Shown one piece after another: positions 22,060 through 26,712 of a DNA stretch of 63,999 bases. Origin of the DNA: Ignavibacteria bacterium. GTDB lineage: Bacteria > Bacteroidota > Ignavibacteria > Tepidaquicellales > OLB5. Position 1 is the first letter of the stretch. Each line of letters begins with the position of its first letter. The stretch is taken from positions 1-63,999 of the forward strand of contig JADZAP010000024.1 of NCBI GenBank assembly GCA_020852705.1, written 5' to 3'. Below the pieces are notes generated by a model. That model searched no databases and was not told the DNA's origin. It saw only the letters and a list, made by a program, of their open reading frames with translations. The position numbers and the translations under genes are program-made.

Positions 22060-23904
22060 ATGTGCGGAATAGTTGCATATCTTGGTAACAAACAGGCATT
22101 ACCAATAATTATAAATGGATTAAAGAAACTTGAATACCGCGGATATGACTCAGCCGGTGTTGCATTAATGTTTGATGATGAAATTGCTGTTCGCAAAACA
22201 GCAGGAAAGGTTTCGGATTTGGAAAACCTGCTTGGCTCAAACGGATATGATAAAAATGCAAGCATTGGATTTGGTCATACACGCTGGGCAACACATGGTG
22301 AACCAAACAACAAAAATGCTCATCCTGTATATGATGAGAACAATGAAATTGTTGTTATTCATAACGGGATAATTGAAAATTACGCAGTATTAAAAACAAG
22401 ACTTGAGCGTGAGGGTTTTCAATTTACAACTGATACCGATACCGAGTGCCTTGTTCACCTGATACGCTCGCATTATAAAAATGTAATGGATTTTGAAACA
22501 TCCGTACGGCTTGCCTTAGCAGAAGTTGACGGTACTTACGGAATGTGTGTACTTTCAAAATTTGAGCCGGATAAAATTATAGCTGCAAGAAAAGGCAGTC
22601 CGTTAGTACTCGGAGTTGGCGATGGTGAATATATTATTGCCTCTGATGCTACGGCTATTATTCCGCACACAAGACAGGTGCTGTACTTAATGGATGGCGA
22701 AATGGTTATATGCAGCAGGGATAAATTTGAAATAAAGACAATTCACGATGAAAAGATAGTTAGAGAACTTGAGGAAATAACATTTGACCTTGAAGAGATT
22801 GAAAAAGGCGGATATGAGCATTTTATGCTCAAGGAAATTAATGAGCAGCCGGATTCAATTACAAATACAATGCGCGGGCGAATAATAAAAGATACCGGGC
22901 TTGTTAAACTTGGCGGACTGATGAATGTTACAGAAAAACTTAAATTTGCTCCGAGGATAATAATTTCTGCCTGCGGCACTGCCTGGCATGCGGGTTTGGT
23001 TGGTGAGTATATGATTGAGCAGATGTGTAAAATTCCCGTAGAGGTTGAATATGCATCTGAGTTCAGATACAGGGATCCGGTGATATTTCCAAATGATATA
23101 ATGTTTGTTATCAGCCAGAGCGGTGAAACCGCTGATACTTTGGCCGCGCTTAAGGAAGCGAAATCAAGGGGTGCTGATGTTTACGGAATTGTAAATGTTG
23201 TTGGAAGCACAATTGCAAGAGAAACTCATGCAGGTGTTTACACTCATGCCGGACCTGAAATTGGGGTTGCTTCAACAAAGGCATTTACATCACAGCTTAC
23301 GGGACTTGCACTGATTTCATTAATGATTGCACAGTACAGAAATTCATTACCTGCAAATGAAATAAAAGAAATAACAGATGAACTTTTAAGAATACCGGAA
23401 AAGATCAGAGAGATTTTAAAGCTTAATGACCAGATACTTGAAATTGCAAAAGTGTTCAAGTTTTGCCAGCACATGCTGTATCTTGGCAGGGGCTATAACT
23501 TCCCTGTTGCACTTGAAGGAGCATTGAAGCTGAAAGAAATTTCATATATACATGCAGAGGGTTATCCTGCTGCGGAAATGAAACACGGTCCGATTGCACT
23601 AATTGACCAGAACATGCCGGTTATTGTAATTGCACCTAAAGACTCAACATACGAGAAAGTTATTTCCAATATCCGCGAGGTTAAGGCAAGAAAAGGTGTT
23701 GTAATAACCATAACTGATCTTGAATCAGACGGGCACATAGAAGAATTCAGTGATTATGTGATAAAAATACCGCATACACTGGAAATGCTTTCGCCTATAC
23801 TGACGACTATTCCATTGCAGATGCTTGCATATCATTTAGCTGTGCTGCGAGGATGCAATGTTGACCAGCCGAGGAATCTTGCAAAGAGCGTAACTGTAGA
23901 GTAA
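22060..23904 (+). CDS. glmS: Glutamine-fructose-6-phosphate aminotransferase
   Basis: 614 residues, full length. The N-terminal glutaminase domain begins MCGIVAYLGN, where Cys2 becomes the nucleophile after Met removal; GHTRWATHGEPN is the conserved loop. Two SIS isomerase domains follow (SACGTAWHAG and ISQSGETADT; then YLGRGYNFPVALEGALKLKE). The C-terminus DQPRNLAKSVTVE carries the active Lys. It makes glucosamine-6-phosphate for peptidoglycan and lipopolysaccharide. No glmS ribozyme is seen in the short leader. Confidence 0.97.
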   Translation: MCGIVAYLGNKQALPIIINGLKKLEYRGYDSAGVALMFDDEIAVRKTAGKVSDLENLLGSNGYDKNASIGFGHTRWATHGEPNNKNAHPVYDENNEIVVIHNGIIENYAVLKTRLEREGFQFTTDTDTECLVHLIRSHYKNVMDFETSVRLALAEVDGTYGMCVLSKFEPDKIIAARKGSPLVLGVGDGEYIIASDATAIIPHTRQVLYLMDGEMVICSRDKFEIKTIHDEKIVRELEEITFDLEEIEKGGYEHFMLKEINEQPDSITNTMRGRIIKDTGLVKLGGLMNVTEKLKFAPRIIISACGTAWHAGLVGEYMIEQMCKIPVEVEYASEFRYRDPVIFPNDIMFVISQSGETADTLAALKEAKSRGADVYGIVNVVGSTIARETHAGVYTHAGPEIGVASTKAFTSQLTGLALISLMIAQYRNSLPANEIKEITDELLRIPEKIREILKLNDQILEIAKVFKFCQHMLYLGRGYNFPVALEGALKLKEISYIHAEGYPAAEMKHGPIALIDQNMPVIVIAPKDSTYEKVISNIREVKARKGVVITITDLESDGHIEEFSDYVIKIPHTLEMLSPILTTIPLQMLAYHLAVLRGCNVDQPRNLAKSVTVE

Positions 23905-23967: not shown

Positions 23968-23994
23968 ACCCGTTCATTTGTACGGGTTTTTATT
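23968..23994 (+). terminator. glmS: glmS terminator
   Basis: AACCCGT pairs with ACGGGTT around an eight-base loop and is followed by TTTTATT. It overlaps the end of the decayed reverse-strand gene at 23974. Confidence 0.85.
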
Positions 23995-24190
23995 AATTTC
24001 AGTCTCATATACTTTGTAGGCATTTGTGATTTTATCAATTGCCTGGTCTGTGTTACCGGGCTTAAGATTCATTATATCCTGAGCAGAAGTCTTAAACGAC
24101 TGTAAAAAAAGCAATTACGGTTTTGATGTTATTCTGAAAAGGTATTACATTCAGAGTTAGGTCAATATTTATAGAGCCTGAATTTGACAA
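23974..24190 (-). pseudogene. Frameshifted paralog A of the ISINLTLN module protein
   Basis: On the reverse strand TTG 24190 opens MSNSGSINIDLTLNVIPFQ, matching MSQSAGNISINLTLNLEPFK of the gene at 24971-25480. The frame breaks in a seven-T run near 24107; removing one T would join it to LQSFKTSAQDIMNLKPGNTD and on to NAYKVYETEINKNPYK before a stop. It lacks the later region and the C-terminal WW motif. It is a decayed first copy of the array and is divergent from the small gene at 24211, as in the intact copies. Confidence 0.7.
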
Positions 24191-24210
24191 AATTGTATTA
24201 GATTTATGTT

Positions 24211-24354
24211 ATGGAATATGTCTTATTCATAGTTGGTTCAATAGCGGTATTATTTTTATTCTGCTTTTTTATTTCATTGCTTGATATGGGTAAAGCAGGC
24301 GTCAGCGACTTCTTTGAAATGCTCCGCCACCCCTTCAGGCTTCCCGACCGATAA
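24211..24354 (+). CDS. Small membrane protein of module A
   Basis: 47 residues: one membrane helix (YVLFIVGSIAVLFLFCFFIS) and a polar tail ending HPFRLPDR. It starts 20 nt from the divergent pseudogene start, with a promoter-like TAGATTTA (24199-24206) 12 nt before the ATG, as in modules B and C. Its end overlaps the convergent gene of module B by 20 nt. Only position and plan link it to the small proteins of modules B and C; sequence is less similar than those two are to each other. Confidence 0.5.
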   Translation: MEYVLFIVGSIAVLFLFCFFISLLDMGKAGVSDFFEMLRHPFRLPDR

Positions 24355-24793
24355 CCCACCAGCTTTCAAAGCCTACATTTTTTAATCCCTGCTGAAGCTT
24401 GGCAAGAGCAATTTCCTGTTTGTTATACTCGCTTAGCATATCGCCGAATGTTGAGCGAAGCATAACCATTATTGACTGAAAGTCCTTAACTCTTAATCCA
24501 ATGTTTTGGTATATGTCACTAAGTTTTGTAACTGAGGTGGCGTGCTGAAGTTTCGCAGCTATAGCTTCTTTTTGAGCAAGCGTTTCCTCTTTGATTTCTT
24601 TTTCAAGCATATTAACTTGCGGAATGGTTTTTTCTATTGCATTTTTAAGCTGAACATACCCGCTTGCATCCGGATTACCAATTTTTGCTGATTGAAGTGA
24701 TTTCAGTATGTTGAGCACCTGCTGCATCTGGTTTTTGAACGGCTCTATGTTCAAAAACAGATTAATTGACATATTTCCTAAATTTTCAGACAC
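24335..24793 (-). CDS. ISINLTLN module protein B (unknown function)
   Basis: 152 residues, GTG start, no signal peptide. Residues 1-70 (NMSINLFLNIEPFKNQMQQ, then IGNPDASGYVQLKNAIEKT) are shared with paralog C. The rest (residues ~72-145) is a different helical region rich in Gln, Lys and Leu. It ends VGFESWWVIGREA, and the F-E-x-WW motif is shared by all copies with a C-terminus. The N-terminal part weakly recalls phage tape-measure beginnings. It forms a divergent pair with the small membrane protein at 24825, 31 nt away. Function unknown. Confidence 0.7.
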   Translation of the reverse strand: MSENLGNMSINLFLNIEPFKNQMQQVLNILKSLQSAKIGNPDASGYVQLKNAIEKTIPQVNMLEKEIKEETLAQKEAIAAKLQHATSVTKLSDIYQNIGLRVKDFQSIMVMLRSTFGDMLSEYNKQEIALAKLQQGLKNVGFESWWVIGREA

Positions 24794-24824
24794 TTTTTAA
24801 CCCTATTTCTTGTTATATTTATAT

Positions 24825-24974
24825 ATGCAGAAAAAGATAATATATACAGAAGCAACCGGATGGGCATATTTTTGGACGCTGGTAATTTTATTTATTCCTA
24901 TTGTAAATATATTCTGCTGGTGGATACCTATTACCTTAATGCGCCGTGAAATTGACCGCCCGCCCCGGTTCTAA
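24825..24974 (+). CDS. Small membrane protein of module B
   Basis: 49 residues: a short polar start, one aromatic membrane helix (YFWTLVILFIPIVNIFCWW) and a basic, Pro-rich tail (MRREIDRPPRF). Shares IP-VN-F-W-P-L-RR-D-P-F with the protein at 25512, so the two are homologous. TATATTTA (24814-24821) lies 11 nt before ATG, so the message may be leaderless. The stop overlaps the convergent gene of module C by 4 nt. Confidence 0.65.
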   Translation: MQKKIIYTEATGWAYFWTLVILFIPIVNIFCWWIPITLMRREIDRPPRF

Positions 24975-25480
24975 TCTTTATTGTTAAATCCCCACCACGT
25001 TTCAAATCCTTCTTTTTCTTTAATCATACTGTATATAAGTACACTGCTTTGCTTCAGCTCTTCTGCTTCATTTGGTTTAAGATTATAATCTTCACAAAGA
25101 CTTATTATCAACTCTTCAATTGTTCCGTTTAATCCAGCGGGCTTTTTCTCCTCGCAATACCTGCGGAACTTTGCATAATTTATTATCAGTTCGGGGTCTG
25201 TGTGCTCGGGTTCATCAACCCGCCAGCCGGAGCGCTCTTTCCACTCCACAGCCACTTTTTGAGCAAGCGTTTCCTCTTTGATTTCTTTTTCAAGCTTATC
25301 AACTTGCGGAATGGTTTTTTCTATTGCATTTTTAAGCTGAACATACCCGCTTGCATCCGGATTAGCAATTTTTGCGGTTTGAAGATTTTGCAGCAAATGC
25401 AAAGCCTCTTGTAAACCTTGCTTAAATGGCTCAAGATTAAGAGTTAAATTTATAGATATATTTCCTGCGCTTTGAGACAC
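24971..25480 (-). CDS. ISINLTLN module protein C (unknown function)
   Basis: 169 residues, GTG start. Residues 1-72 match paralog B closely; at DNA level 25258-25376 is almost identical to 24572-24690. Then the sequence switches to a different C-terminal part: WKERSGWRVDEPEHTDPEL, GTIEELIISLCEDYN and a final KEKEGFETWWGFNNKD. That C-terminal part matches the fragment at 25659 rather than paralog B. A conserved head with exchangeable tails is therefore seen. No catalytic motif is recognised. Divergent partner: the small membrane gene at 25512, 31 nt away. Confidence 0.7.
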   Translation of the reverse strand: MSQSAGNISINLTLNLEPFKQGLQEALHLLQNLQTAKIANPDASGYVQLKNAIEKTIPQVDKLEKEIKEETLAQKVAVEWKERSGWRVDEPEHTDPELIINYAKFRRYCEEKKPAGLNGTIEELIISLCEDYNLKPNEAEELKQSSVLIYSMIKEKEGFETWWGFNNKD

Positions 25481-25511
25481 TTTTTATCCTAAAATTATGT
25501 TATATTTGTAT

Positions 25512-25652
25512 ATGAAACCAAAATTCACACAAGCTCATCCATTTGCATACGTACTGGCTTTTTTTTTGCTTTTAATCCCGGTAGTTAACTTATTTTTCTG
25601 GCTTCCGGTTGTTCTGTTCCGCCGTCCGTGTGATTATCCTTCTGAATTCTAA
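25512..25652 (+). CDS. Small membrane protein of module C
   Basis: 46 residues: polar start, one helix (FAYVLAFFLLLIPVVNLFFW), then LPVVLFRRPCDYPSEF. Clear homolog of the module B small protein. TATATTTG (25501-25508), a perfect TAnnTTTG element, ends 3 nt before the ATG, which predicts a leaderless message. It ends 6 nt before the convergent remnant D. Confidence 0.65.
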   Translation: MKPKFTQAHPFAYVLAFFLLLIPVVNLFFWLPVVLFRRPCDYPSEF

Positions 25653-25658
25653 AAAGCT

Positions 25659-25840
25659 TTATTTCTTCTTATAGATCCACCACATCTCAAAGCTTTCTTT
25701 TTCTTTAATCAAACTATAGATTGAGACTTCGTATTCCTTTAGCTCATCAGCTTCAATCGGTTTCGGATTATAATCTTTACATAAGCTCATCAGTAATTTT
25801 TCCTCAGTAACTTTTAACCCCGGTGTGTGTTTTGATTTAA
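25659..25840 (-). pseudogene. C-terminal remnant D of the module protein
   Basis: Reverse-strand reading HTPGLKVTEEKLLMSLCKDY, then IKEKESFEMWWIYKKK and a stop. It matches the last ~55 residues of paralog C (PAGLNGTIEELIISLCEDYN ... KEKEGFETWW). No start codon and no N-terminal ISINLTLN head are present. A truncated fourth copy at the right edge of the array. Confidence 0.75.
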
Positions 25841-26141
25841 TTTATTTTTGATAATTTGAATATTTAATTAACAGCCCGGGGGTCGCATAGCTTGGGTGTA
25901 TCAACTAATCAGCCAGAGCGGGTTCTTATTAATTTAACATCCAGCATATAAAATTCAGAAGAATGTTTTAAATTTTTCACTTTTACAAATAAGATGATGA
26001 AATTGCAATTAGGCATTGTTTTACATCTTAAATACAACTTTTTGGGATATTTCAGCTAACAATAGGGAGCATTTAGGATCCACTCAAGACGGAATATTTT
26101 CAAAAAATATAAAAATACAATAAATGGACTCCGGAACTGAT
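25841..26141. other. Gap without recognisable gene
   Basis: About 300 bases of AT-rich sequence with no reading frame that looks coding. It begins at the broken edge of the module array, so it may hold more decayed copies that I cannot read. Confidence 0.5.
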
Positions 26142-26191
26142 ATTAAATTTGCATACCAAATTTTATAATTTCATATTAATTTTGCATACCA
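26142..26191 (+). promoter_or_regulatory. Two tandem promoter-like elements
   Basis: ATTAAATTTGCATACCA (26142-26158) and ATTAATTTTGCATACCA (26175-26191) repeat almost exactly with a 33-nt period. Each contains TAnnTTTG. They lie 25-70 nt before the DUF4920-like gene and probably give two start points. Confidence 0.5.
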
Positions 26192-26214
26192 CAGTTAATT
26201 AAATACAAAAAAAC

Positions 26215-26712
26215 ATGAAATACATTAAATTATTACCAATCTTTTTAGTTTTAGTTTCATTTACAGTTTTTTCACAGCATGACGGCAAAAAAGACGGTGA
26301 AAAAGTTGATGCAAAAGAGCTTTCAGACGGCACTCTATACGGTACGGATATAAACGCTGAGCAAAAAGTATTAAGTGTTGCGGATATTTATGCTGATACA
26401 TCTGCTTATATTGGTAAAAATGTAGTTGTAAAAGGCAATATGAGCGAAATATGCCGCGAAGGCGGCTGCTGGATAGTAGTAAGCGATGGTACAAACAGCA
26501 TAAGAGCATTAACTCAGCATAAATTCATAATGCCAAAGGATATGGATATTAACGGCAAAGCGGCAGTTGTTGAAGGTATTTTCAGTATTAAGGAAATTAC
26601 AGAAGAGCAGGCAAAACATTTTGCTGAAGAGTCAGGGAAAGATACAAATTTGATTAACGGTCCGCAGAAGATGTACAGAATAATTGCAACAGGGATTAAG
26701 ATTTTGAAGTGA
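26215..26712 (+). CDS. Secreted DUF4920-like protein
   Basis: 165 residues. Signal peptide (MKYIKLLPIFLVLVSFTVFS), then a charged linker and an OB-like domain: IGKNVVVKGNMSEICREGGC followed by WIVVSDGTNSIRALTQHKFI and NGKAAVVEGIFSIKEITEEQ. The C-x5-GCW pattern is typical of the DUF4920 family of periplasmic proteins, some linked to metal or redox stress; no function is established. A repeat and a bidirectional terminator follow. Confidence 0.7.
   Translation: MKYIKLLPIFLVLVSFTVFSQHDGKKDGEKVDAKELSDGTLYGTDINAEQKVLSVADIYADTSAYIGKNVVVKGNMSEICREGGCWIVVSDGTNSIRALTQHKFIMPKDMDINGKAAVVEGIFSIKEITEEQAKHFAEESGKDTNLINGPQKMYRIIATGIKILK

Follow-up and report, generated by a model that had tools for sequence, protein, structure and literature searches.

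A probable phage moron cluster stranded behind glmS in an Ignavibacteria genome

Introduction

The window considered here, a stretch of 63,999 nucleotides from an Ignavibacteria bacterium, contains behind the host gene glmS a repeated unit, in which a reverse-strand gene for a larger protein starts close to a forward-strand gene for a tiny membrane protein. What holds these two genes together? The original prediction regarded them as a linked pair of a kind with no described counterpart, perhaps toxin-like, a phage defence or decoy, or scraps of a phage tail gene. Hence, there are several alternatives: the two genes could act jointly, only one of them could have a function, or the entire array could be debris.

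Results

Layout of the array

The genes of the array are as follows (small genes on the forward strand, large genes on the reverse strand).

24211-24354, plus strand: small gene A, occupying the moron slot (see below) and encoding a one-helix protein of 47 aa
24335-24793, minus strand: large B, 152 aa, GTG start, composed of the segments TMP_B and T_B
24825-24974, plus strand: small gene B, likewise in that slot and encoding a membrane protein of 49 aa
24971-25480, minus strand: large C, 169 aa, GTG start, composed of TMP_C and T_C joined at CTTGCTCAAAAAG
25512-25652, plus strand: small gene C, 46-aa membrane protein, the core of a LITAF-like moron seen in genome G038

Modules B and C are both intact, with the same start-to-start gap of 31 nt between the large and the small gene, and their layout, order and spacing are as originally described. 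The large gene of module A is indeed frameshifted, its recognisable head SNSGSINIDLTLNVIPFQ beginning near 24190. Unit D had rightly been called a C-terminal remnant, but its proposed extent (25659-25840) was too short, as the homology continues past in-frame stops to about 25918. The stop of a small gene overlaps the stop of the next large gene in two cases (24974/24971 and 24354/24335). At the nucleotide level modules B and C share repeats of 144 nt at 92% and 93 nt at 71%, far above chance; small B and small C are 43% identical, and small A has no detectable relation to either of them.

Composition of the large proteins

Judging by their sequences, the large proteins do not represent a new family, and each consists of the head of a phage tape measure protein (TMP) joined to the end of T, the part of a tail assembly chaperone reached by frameshift. 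When large C was searched against its own genome (a 2.94-Mb assembly in 75 contigs), two adjacent matches were found on the contig C61: the N-terminal part matches the start of an 810-aa protein, and the C-terminal part matches a startless ORF overlapping the end of a 128-aa ORF. The gene order there is tail protein, chaperone G, frameshift T, tape measure. In PHROGs the 810-aa protein groups with tape measure families and the chaperone gives no match; the latter is named so because of its position, size and second-frame extension. In this prophage (L011 9620-10275) chaperone G has its second-frame T extension at an AAAAAG run.

The following TMP- and T-derived segments are distinguished in the array.

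24000-24190, minus strand: TMP_A, frameshifted tape measure head remnant, cut at a direct repeat
24335-24373, minus strand: T_B, the last 12 codons of chaperone T with the GFESWW end, fused to TMP_B, as judged from the alignment of T ends
24374-24793, minus strand: TMP_B, tape measure head of about 140 aa
24971-25255, minus strand: T_C, the whole T domain, from just past the chaperone slippery site to the stop
25256-25480, minus strand: TMP_C, tape measure head of about 75 aa
25659-25918, minus strand: T_D, what is left of chaperone T, interrupted by in-frame stops and truncated at the right repeat

TMP_B is colinear with residues 1-144 of the C61 TMP (score 119; the best of 500 shuffles scored 56), and the local score of 76 between TMP_A and the same protein was reached by none of 500 shuffles. 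The TMP nearest to large B belongs to a prophage of G037 (score 165, shuffle maximum 62). T_C and the C61 T score 157, a value that none of 500 shuffles reached (maximum 54). Thus, homology of the large heads to the TMP N-terminus is present, in line with the earlier mention of phage tail scraps, and the F-E-x-WW C-terminus noted as shared by the large proteins is the end of chaperone T. Outside the array the large proteins match ordinary TMP or T genes. The large proteins are not full-length TMPs, comprising heads of 75-140 aa on T ends with no surrounding tail operon.

Read from its right end, the array is T_D, small C, TMP_C fused to T_C, small B, TMP_B fused to T_B, small A, TMP_A. Each large ORF is read from the TMP head to the T end, the reverse of the phage order, and this is expected where T-TMP segments follow each other. 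The fusion of a TMP head with T is absent from every other genome among 391 of the class, and a search of the genome contig collection with both large proteins gave no match. For the window proteins nothing exceeded the cut-off in Pfam, PHROGs, NCBIfam and PADLOC; with the PADLOC models no small protein matched, and weak matches of large B were at the chance level. The AlphaFold model of large C is all helical, its mean pLDDT of 58.7 being too poor for a fold search.

The slot between T and the tape measure gene

In phages the tail genes concerned are arranged as G, T, TMP; the small genes occupy the gap between the last two and are read from the opposite strand. The same slot is filled in ten prophage-like loci of Ignavibacteria, located via chaperone and TMP searches: G027, G028 (with three ORFs), G033, G034, G037, G038, G166, G225 and two phages of G300. 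In all seven outside phage TMP loci matched by large B there is an opposite-strand membrane ORF in the gap. The small genes are thus conserved elsewhere by position, beside full tape measure genes of other phages. A further match in the class, in G133, was rejected as a Wzz-like false match.

The measured gaps containing a small gene span 134-1660 nt; in the phages of C61, G007, G010 and G012, which have no small gene there, the gap is 14, 0, 0 and -4 nt, respectively. With the three gaps of the window counted, a hydrophobic ORF occurs on the antisense strand in 12 of 12 gaps and on the sense strand in none of the 12, and only 0-14 of 400 shuffles of a gap were equally good. The T gene of G166 could not be delimited with certainty, and its gap stands outside the shuffle test; the start codon in G033 is ambiguous. 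The slot proteins (33-84 aa, best 19-residue hydropathy 1.9-3.2) are predicted to be membrane proteins and fall into several unrelated kinds. In L131 the moron and the tape measure gene are head to head with overlapping start codons (1188-1373 and 1372).

The gap of G028 (L012 6475-8134), with its three opposite-strand small ORFs, is a second multi-moron cluster, in this case inside a prophage. It has internal direct repeats (86 nt at 73% and 37 nt at 84%) and an inverted repeat of 38 nt. It yielded no detectable scraps of TMP or T, hence its three genes need not share the route by which the array arose. The tail regions L012 and L013 also have tandem paralogs with pentapeptide-like repeats between the major tail protein and the chaperone.

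The profile of small B and small C yielded one good relative outside their own genome (E 4e-8), in G038; its gene stands precisely between the chaperone and TMP genes of a prophage-like contig and runs opposite to both. This moron has a zf-LITAF-like domain (PF10601; 29.2 bits against the cut-off of 23.8), with two CxxC zinc knuckles around the membrane segment, whereas small B and small C keep only the membrane core, lack the zinc CxxC and do not match the model. LITAF-like zinc-ribbon proteins are also encoded in the same-order genomes G028, G022, G033 and G018 (L036, L037, L038 and L039, respectively), none of them in a tail region. None of the following matched a cultured phage: large C, small B, small C, the moron and the TMP head of one of the relatives, and the tail region of G037. 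In IMG/VR, six query sequences gave no match.

Thus, the pairing of large and small genes proposed originally is real; it reflects neighbourhood in a phage genome and is no evidence of a toxin-like system.

Putative promoter elements

Each small gene of the window is preceded by a -7-type element.

24199-24206, plus strand: TAnnTTTA, before small A
24814-24821, plus strand: TATATTTA, before small B
25501-25508, plus strand: TATATTTG, before small C

The TAnnTTT(G/A) element reported in the original prediction holds up, and each copy ends 3-4 nt ahead of its ATG. The same arrangement is seen in four of eleven small genes, namely all three of the window and one of G028, the element being missing from most morons of the relatives. 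In Bacteroides promoters the -7 element reads TAnnTTTG (PMC7366714). Given this distance to the ATG, the transcripts are predicted to be leaderless or nearly so; as leaderless mRNAs are rare in Bacteroides (PMC7366714), we treat this reading as a prediction only.

Formation of the array and its insertion

In the heads of B and C, residues 1-33 show synonymous saturation (pS 0.82, pN 0.30), while residues 34-75 are nearly identical (pS 0.04, pN 0.04). The small genes B and C are likewise diverged, with pS 0.87 and pN 0.38, indicating coding constraint, and T_C and T_D are about half identical. With a saturated head and small gene beside a near-identical tract, and with T domains so different, the units are not simple recent duplicates. 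They stem from different phages or diverged long ago and recombined later, and the near-identical tract within saturated sequence points to recent recombination in the locus or in the phages from which it came. The joint of large C (CTTGCTCAAAAAG followed by TGGC) falls on the A-run of the slippery site in the chaperone, a site that reads GAGCAAAAAGTTAGG in C61.

The array probably grew as different phages recombined. In this view, illegitimate recombination would have linked their T-moron-TMP segments, one TMP head to the next T, where short stretches matched, for instance at the slippery run CAAAAAG of the chaperone. Every such event would add one moron, keep T at one end and TMP at the other, leave the tail genes outside the joint intact, and produce an ORF of a TMP head followed by a T tail, that is, a large protein, as a by-product. 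The joined array, cut at both ends, would finally have come to lie between 17-bp repeats behind glmS. We infer this order of events from the structure of the present locus. Absence of the fusion from the other class genomes argues for the large ORFs being by-products; against this, two of them are open and in frame, and by-products need not stay so.

22060-23904, plus strand: glmS, a host gene whose terminator is followed by the inserted array
23983-23999: left 17-bp direct repeat CGGGTTTTTATTAATTT, containing the 3' arm of the glmS terminator
25919-25935: right 17-bp direct repeat CGGGTTCTTATTAATTT, matching the left copy in 16 of 17 positions

The GlmS protein of the window is 91-95% identical to those of Chlorobi bacterium OLB5 and Ignavibacteria MAGs. 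The phage-derived stretch is bounded on both sides by the 17-bp repeats and constitutes a 1.9-kb insertion; a comparable repeat pair at that distance was found in one of 200 Markov sequences. Elsewhere in the own genome the repeat pattern occurs at two sites, both with a mismatch, so that there is no exact third copy. In the sister genomes the array is absent, and a relative of the gene at 26215 lies within about 220 nt of glmS. Direct repeats at both ends fit site-specific or illegitimate integration. The segment to the right of the array (25936-26173) has no clear homology to the sister genomes. Just before the 26215 gene (window positions 26140-26199) there are two ATATTAAATTTGCATACCA-like copies 33 bp apart, with the look of a doubled promoter or operator.

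Discussion

The origin of the array and the identity of the slot are well supported; the function of the small proteins we infer from their position, membrane character and the Bacteroidota-type -7 promoter element. In HK97 (AF069529) the order is gp13/14 frameshift chaperones, gp15 moron, gp16 tape measure. According to PMC10883804, gp15 is a predicted inner-membrane protein blocking DNA injection (Cumby et al. 2012), and it is evaded by hybrid phages that carry a different tail tube and tape measure. Since the small genes fill the T-TMP slot as gp15 does, the array is best read as a moron cluster. The likeness is that of a tiny predicted inner-membrane protein (62 aa in the case of gp15) in the chaperone-tape measure slot. 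The differences are that gp15 lies on the same strand as the late genes and is a single copy within a phage, whereas the small genes of the window are on the opposite strand and form an array. No local alignment between small C and gp15 was found at E <= 100; because of this lack of similarity we suggest that the small proteins work like gp15 and do not claim membership in its family.

Ltp of TP-J34 is a lipoprotein of a different class and genome position from the small proteins of the window. According to PMC10883804 it is a prophage-made, membrane-located block of DNA injection, which resembles what is proposed for the small proteins, and its exclusion is overcome by tape measure changes. 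Tab, the tail assembly blocker of JBD26, is also a small prophage-made moron product, one that acts through the tape measure protein of the invaders, but it is soluble, 83 aa long and active at assembly, and its gene lies between those for the terminase, with an anti-Tab linked to it (PMC10884400).

By analogy, the simplest reading is that the small proteins are exclusion proteins, with a target type linked to the neighbouring tape measure. Having its own -7 element, a small gene would be expressed from a silent prophage and not with the late genes, and the tiny protein would sit in the inner membrane and stop a superinfecting phage at the entry of its DNA or at some other step that depends on the TMP. 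On balance we favour the interpretation of the entire region as a stranded moron cluster, in which the prophage expresses the small proteins to exclude superinfecting phages and each joining event left a large ORF as its by-product. As the array occurs in a single host species, there is no sign that it was selectively kept after capture; units A and D are decayed.

How does this interpretation compare with the others? If the array were a dead prophage scrap with no present host function, all its ORFs would be leftovers being lost. The frameshift in A, the stops in D, truncation at both ends and restriction to one species are consistent with that, but none of the three small genes or their -7 elements is broken, two of the large ORFs remain open, and B and C share a recent near-identical tract within otherwise saturated sequence. 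We regard this explanation as less likely than the favoured one, though by no means far-fetched. We give less credence to active large proteins, that is, to a TMP head with a T domain serving as a decoy that jams the tail assembly of incoming phages, the small protein being its partner or a second layer. Two of the four fusions are intact and in frame, with GTG starts behind AGGA/AGGG-type sites, head residues 1-33 are constrained, and interference with tail assembly is a known defence both through the tape measure (Tab, PMC10884400) and more widely (Tai, PMC11364771). The constraint, however, may date from the time when the heads belonged to TMPs, A and D are broken, the large genes have no identified promoter, no such fusion exists in the other class genomes, and the outside phage matches are ordinary genes.

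It is similarly improbable that the opposite-strand gene serves the tail genes of its own phage, by antisense control of the TMP or as a membrane guard against TMP toxicity. The gene is always beside the TMP gene and starts head to head with it, to the point of overlapping start codons in L131; still, four related phages live without it, and several unrelated kinds of protein suit exchangeable morons better than a regulator. Finally, a small hydrophobic ORF repeatedly found beside a soluble one could suggest a two-gene toxin-antitoxin system in tandem repeat. The large gene consists of pieces of two structural genes, the small gene adjoins full TMP genes in phages, and no window protein matches a toxin or antitoxin family; we rejected this very improbable explanation on the anatomy of the genes.

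As far as we searched, the kind of genes found here, phage morons, is known, while neither the opposite-strand slot nor an array outside a phage has been described. Hence, the layout originally thought to be novel is partly so: a small gene between chaperone and tape measure is the HK97 gp15 slot, and no description was found of its opposite-strand version in Ignavibacteria or of the array outside a phage.

A broader possibility, which we put forward tentatively and with somewhat less than even expectation, is that the chaperone-TMP gap is a general, class-wide slot for interchangeable opposite-strand membrane proteins excluding rivals by tape measure type, and that recombination lets hosts or prophages stack them and thereby keep a record of several exclusion types at once. 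If so, position alone, that is, the opposite strand in the chaperone-tape measure gap, would allow one to find many diverse tiny exclusion proteins that are invisible to family searches, and the tape measure would be tied to such proteins as their target. The array would then also illustrate a concrete way for phages to stack morons, with the flanking tail genes spared.
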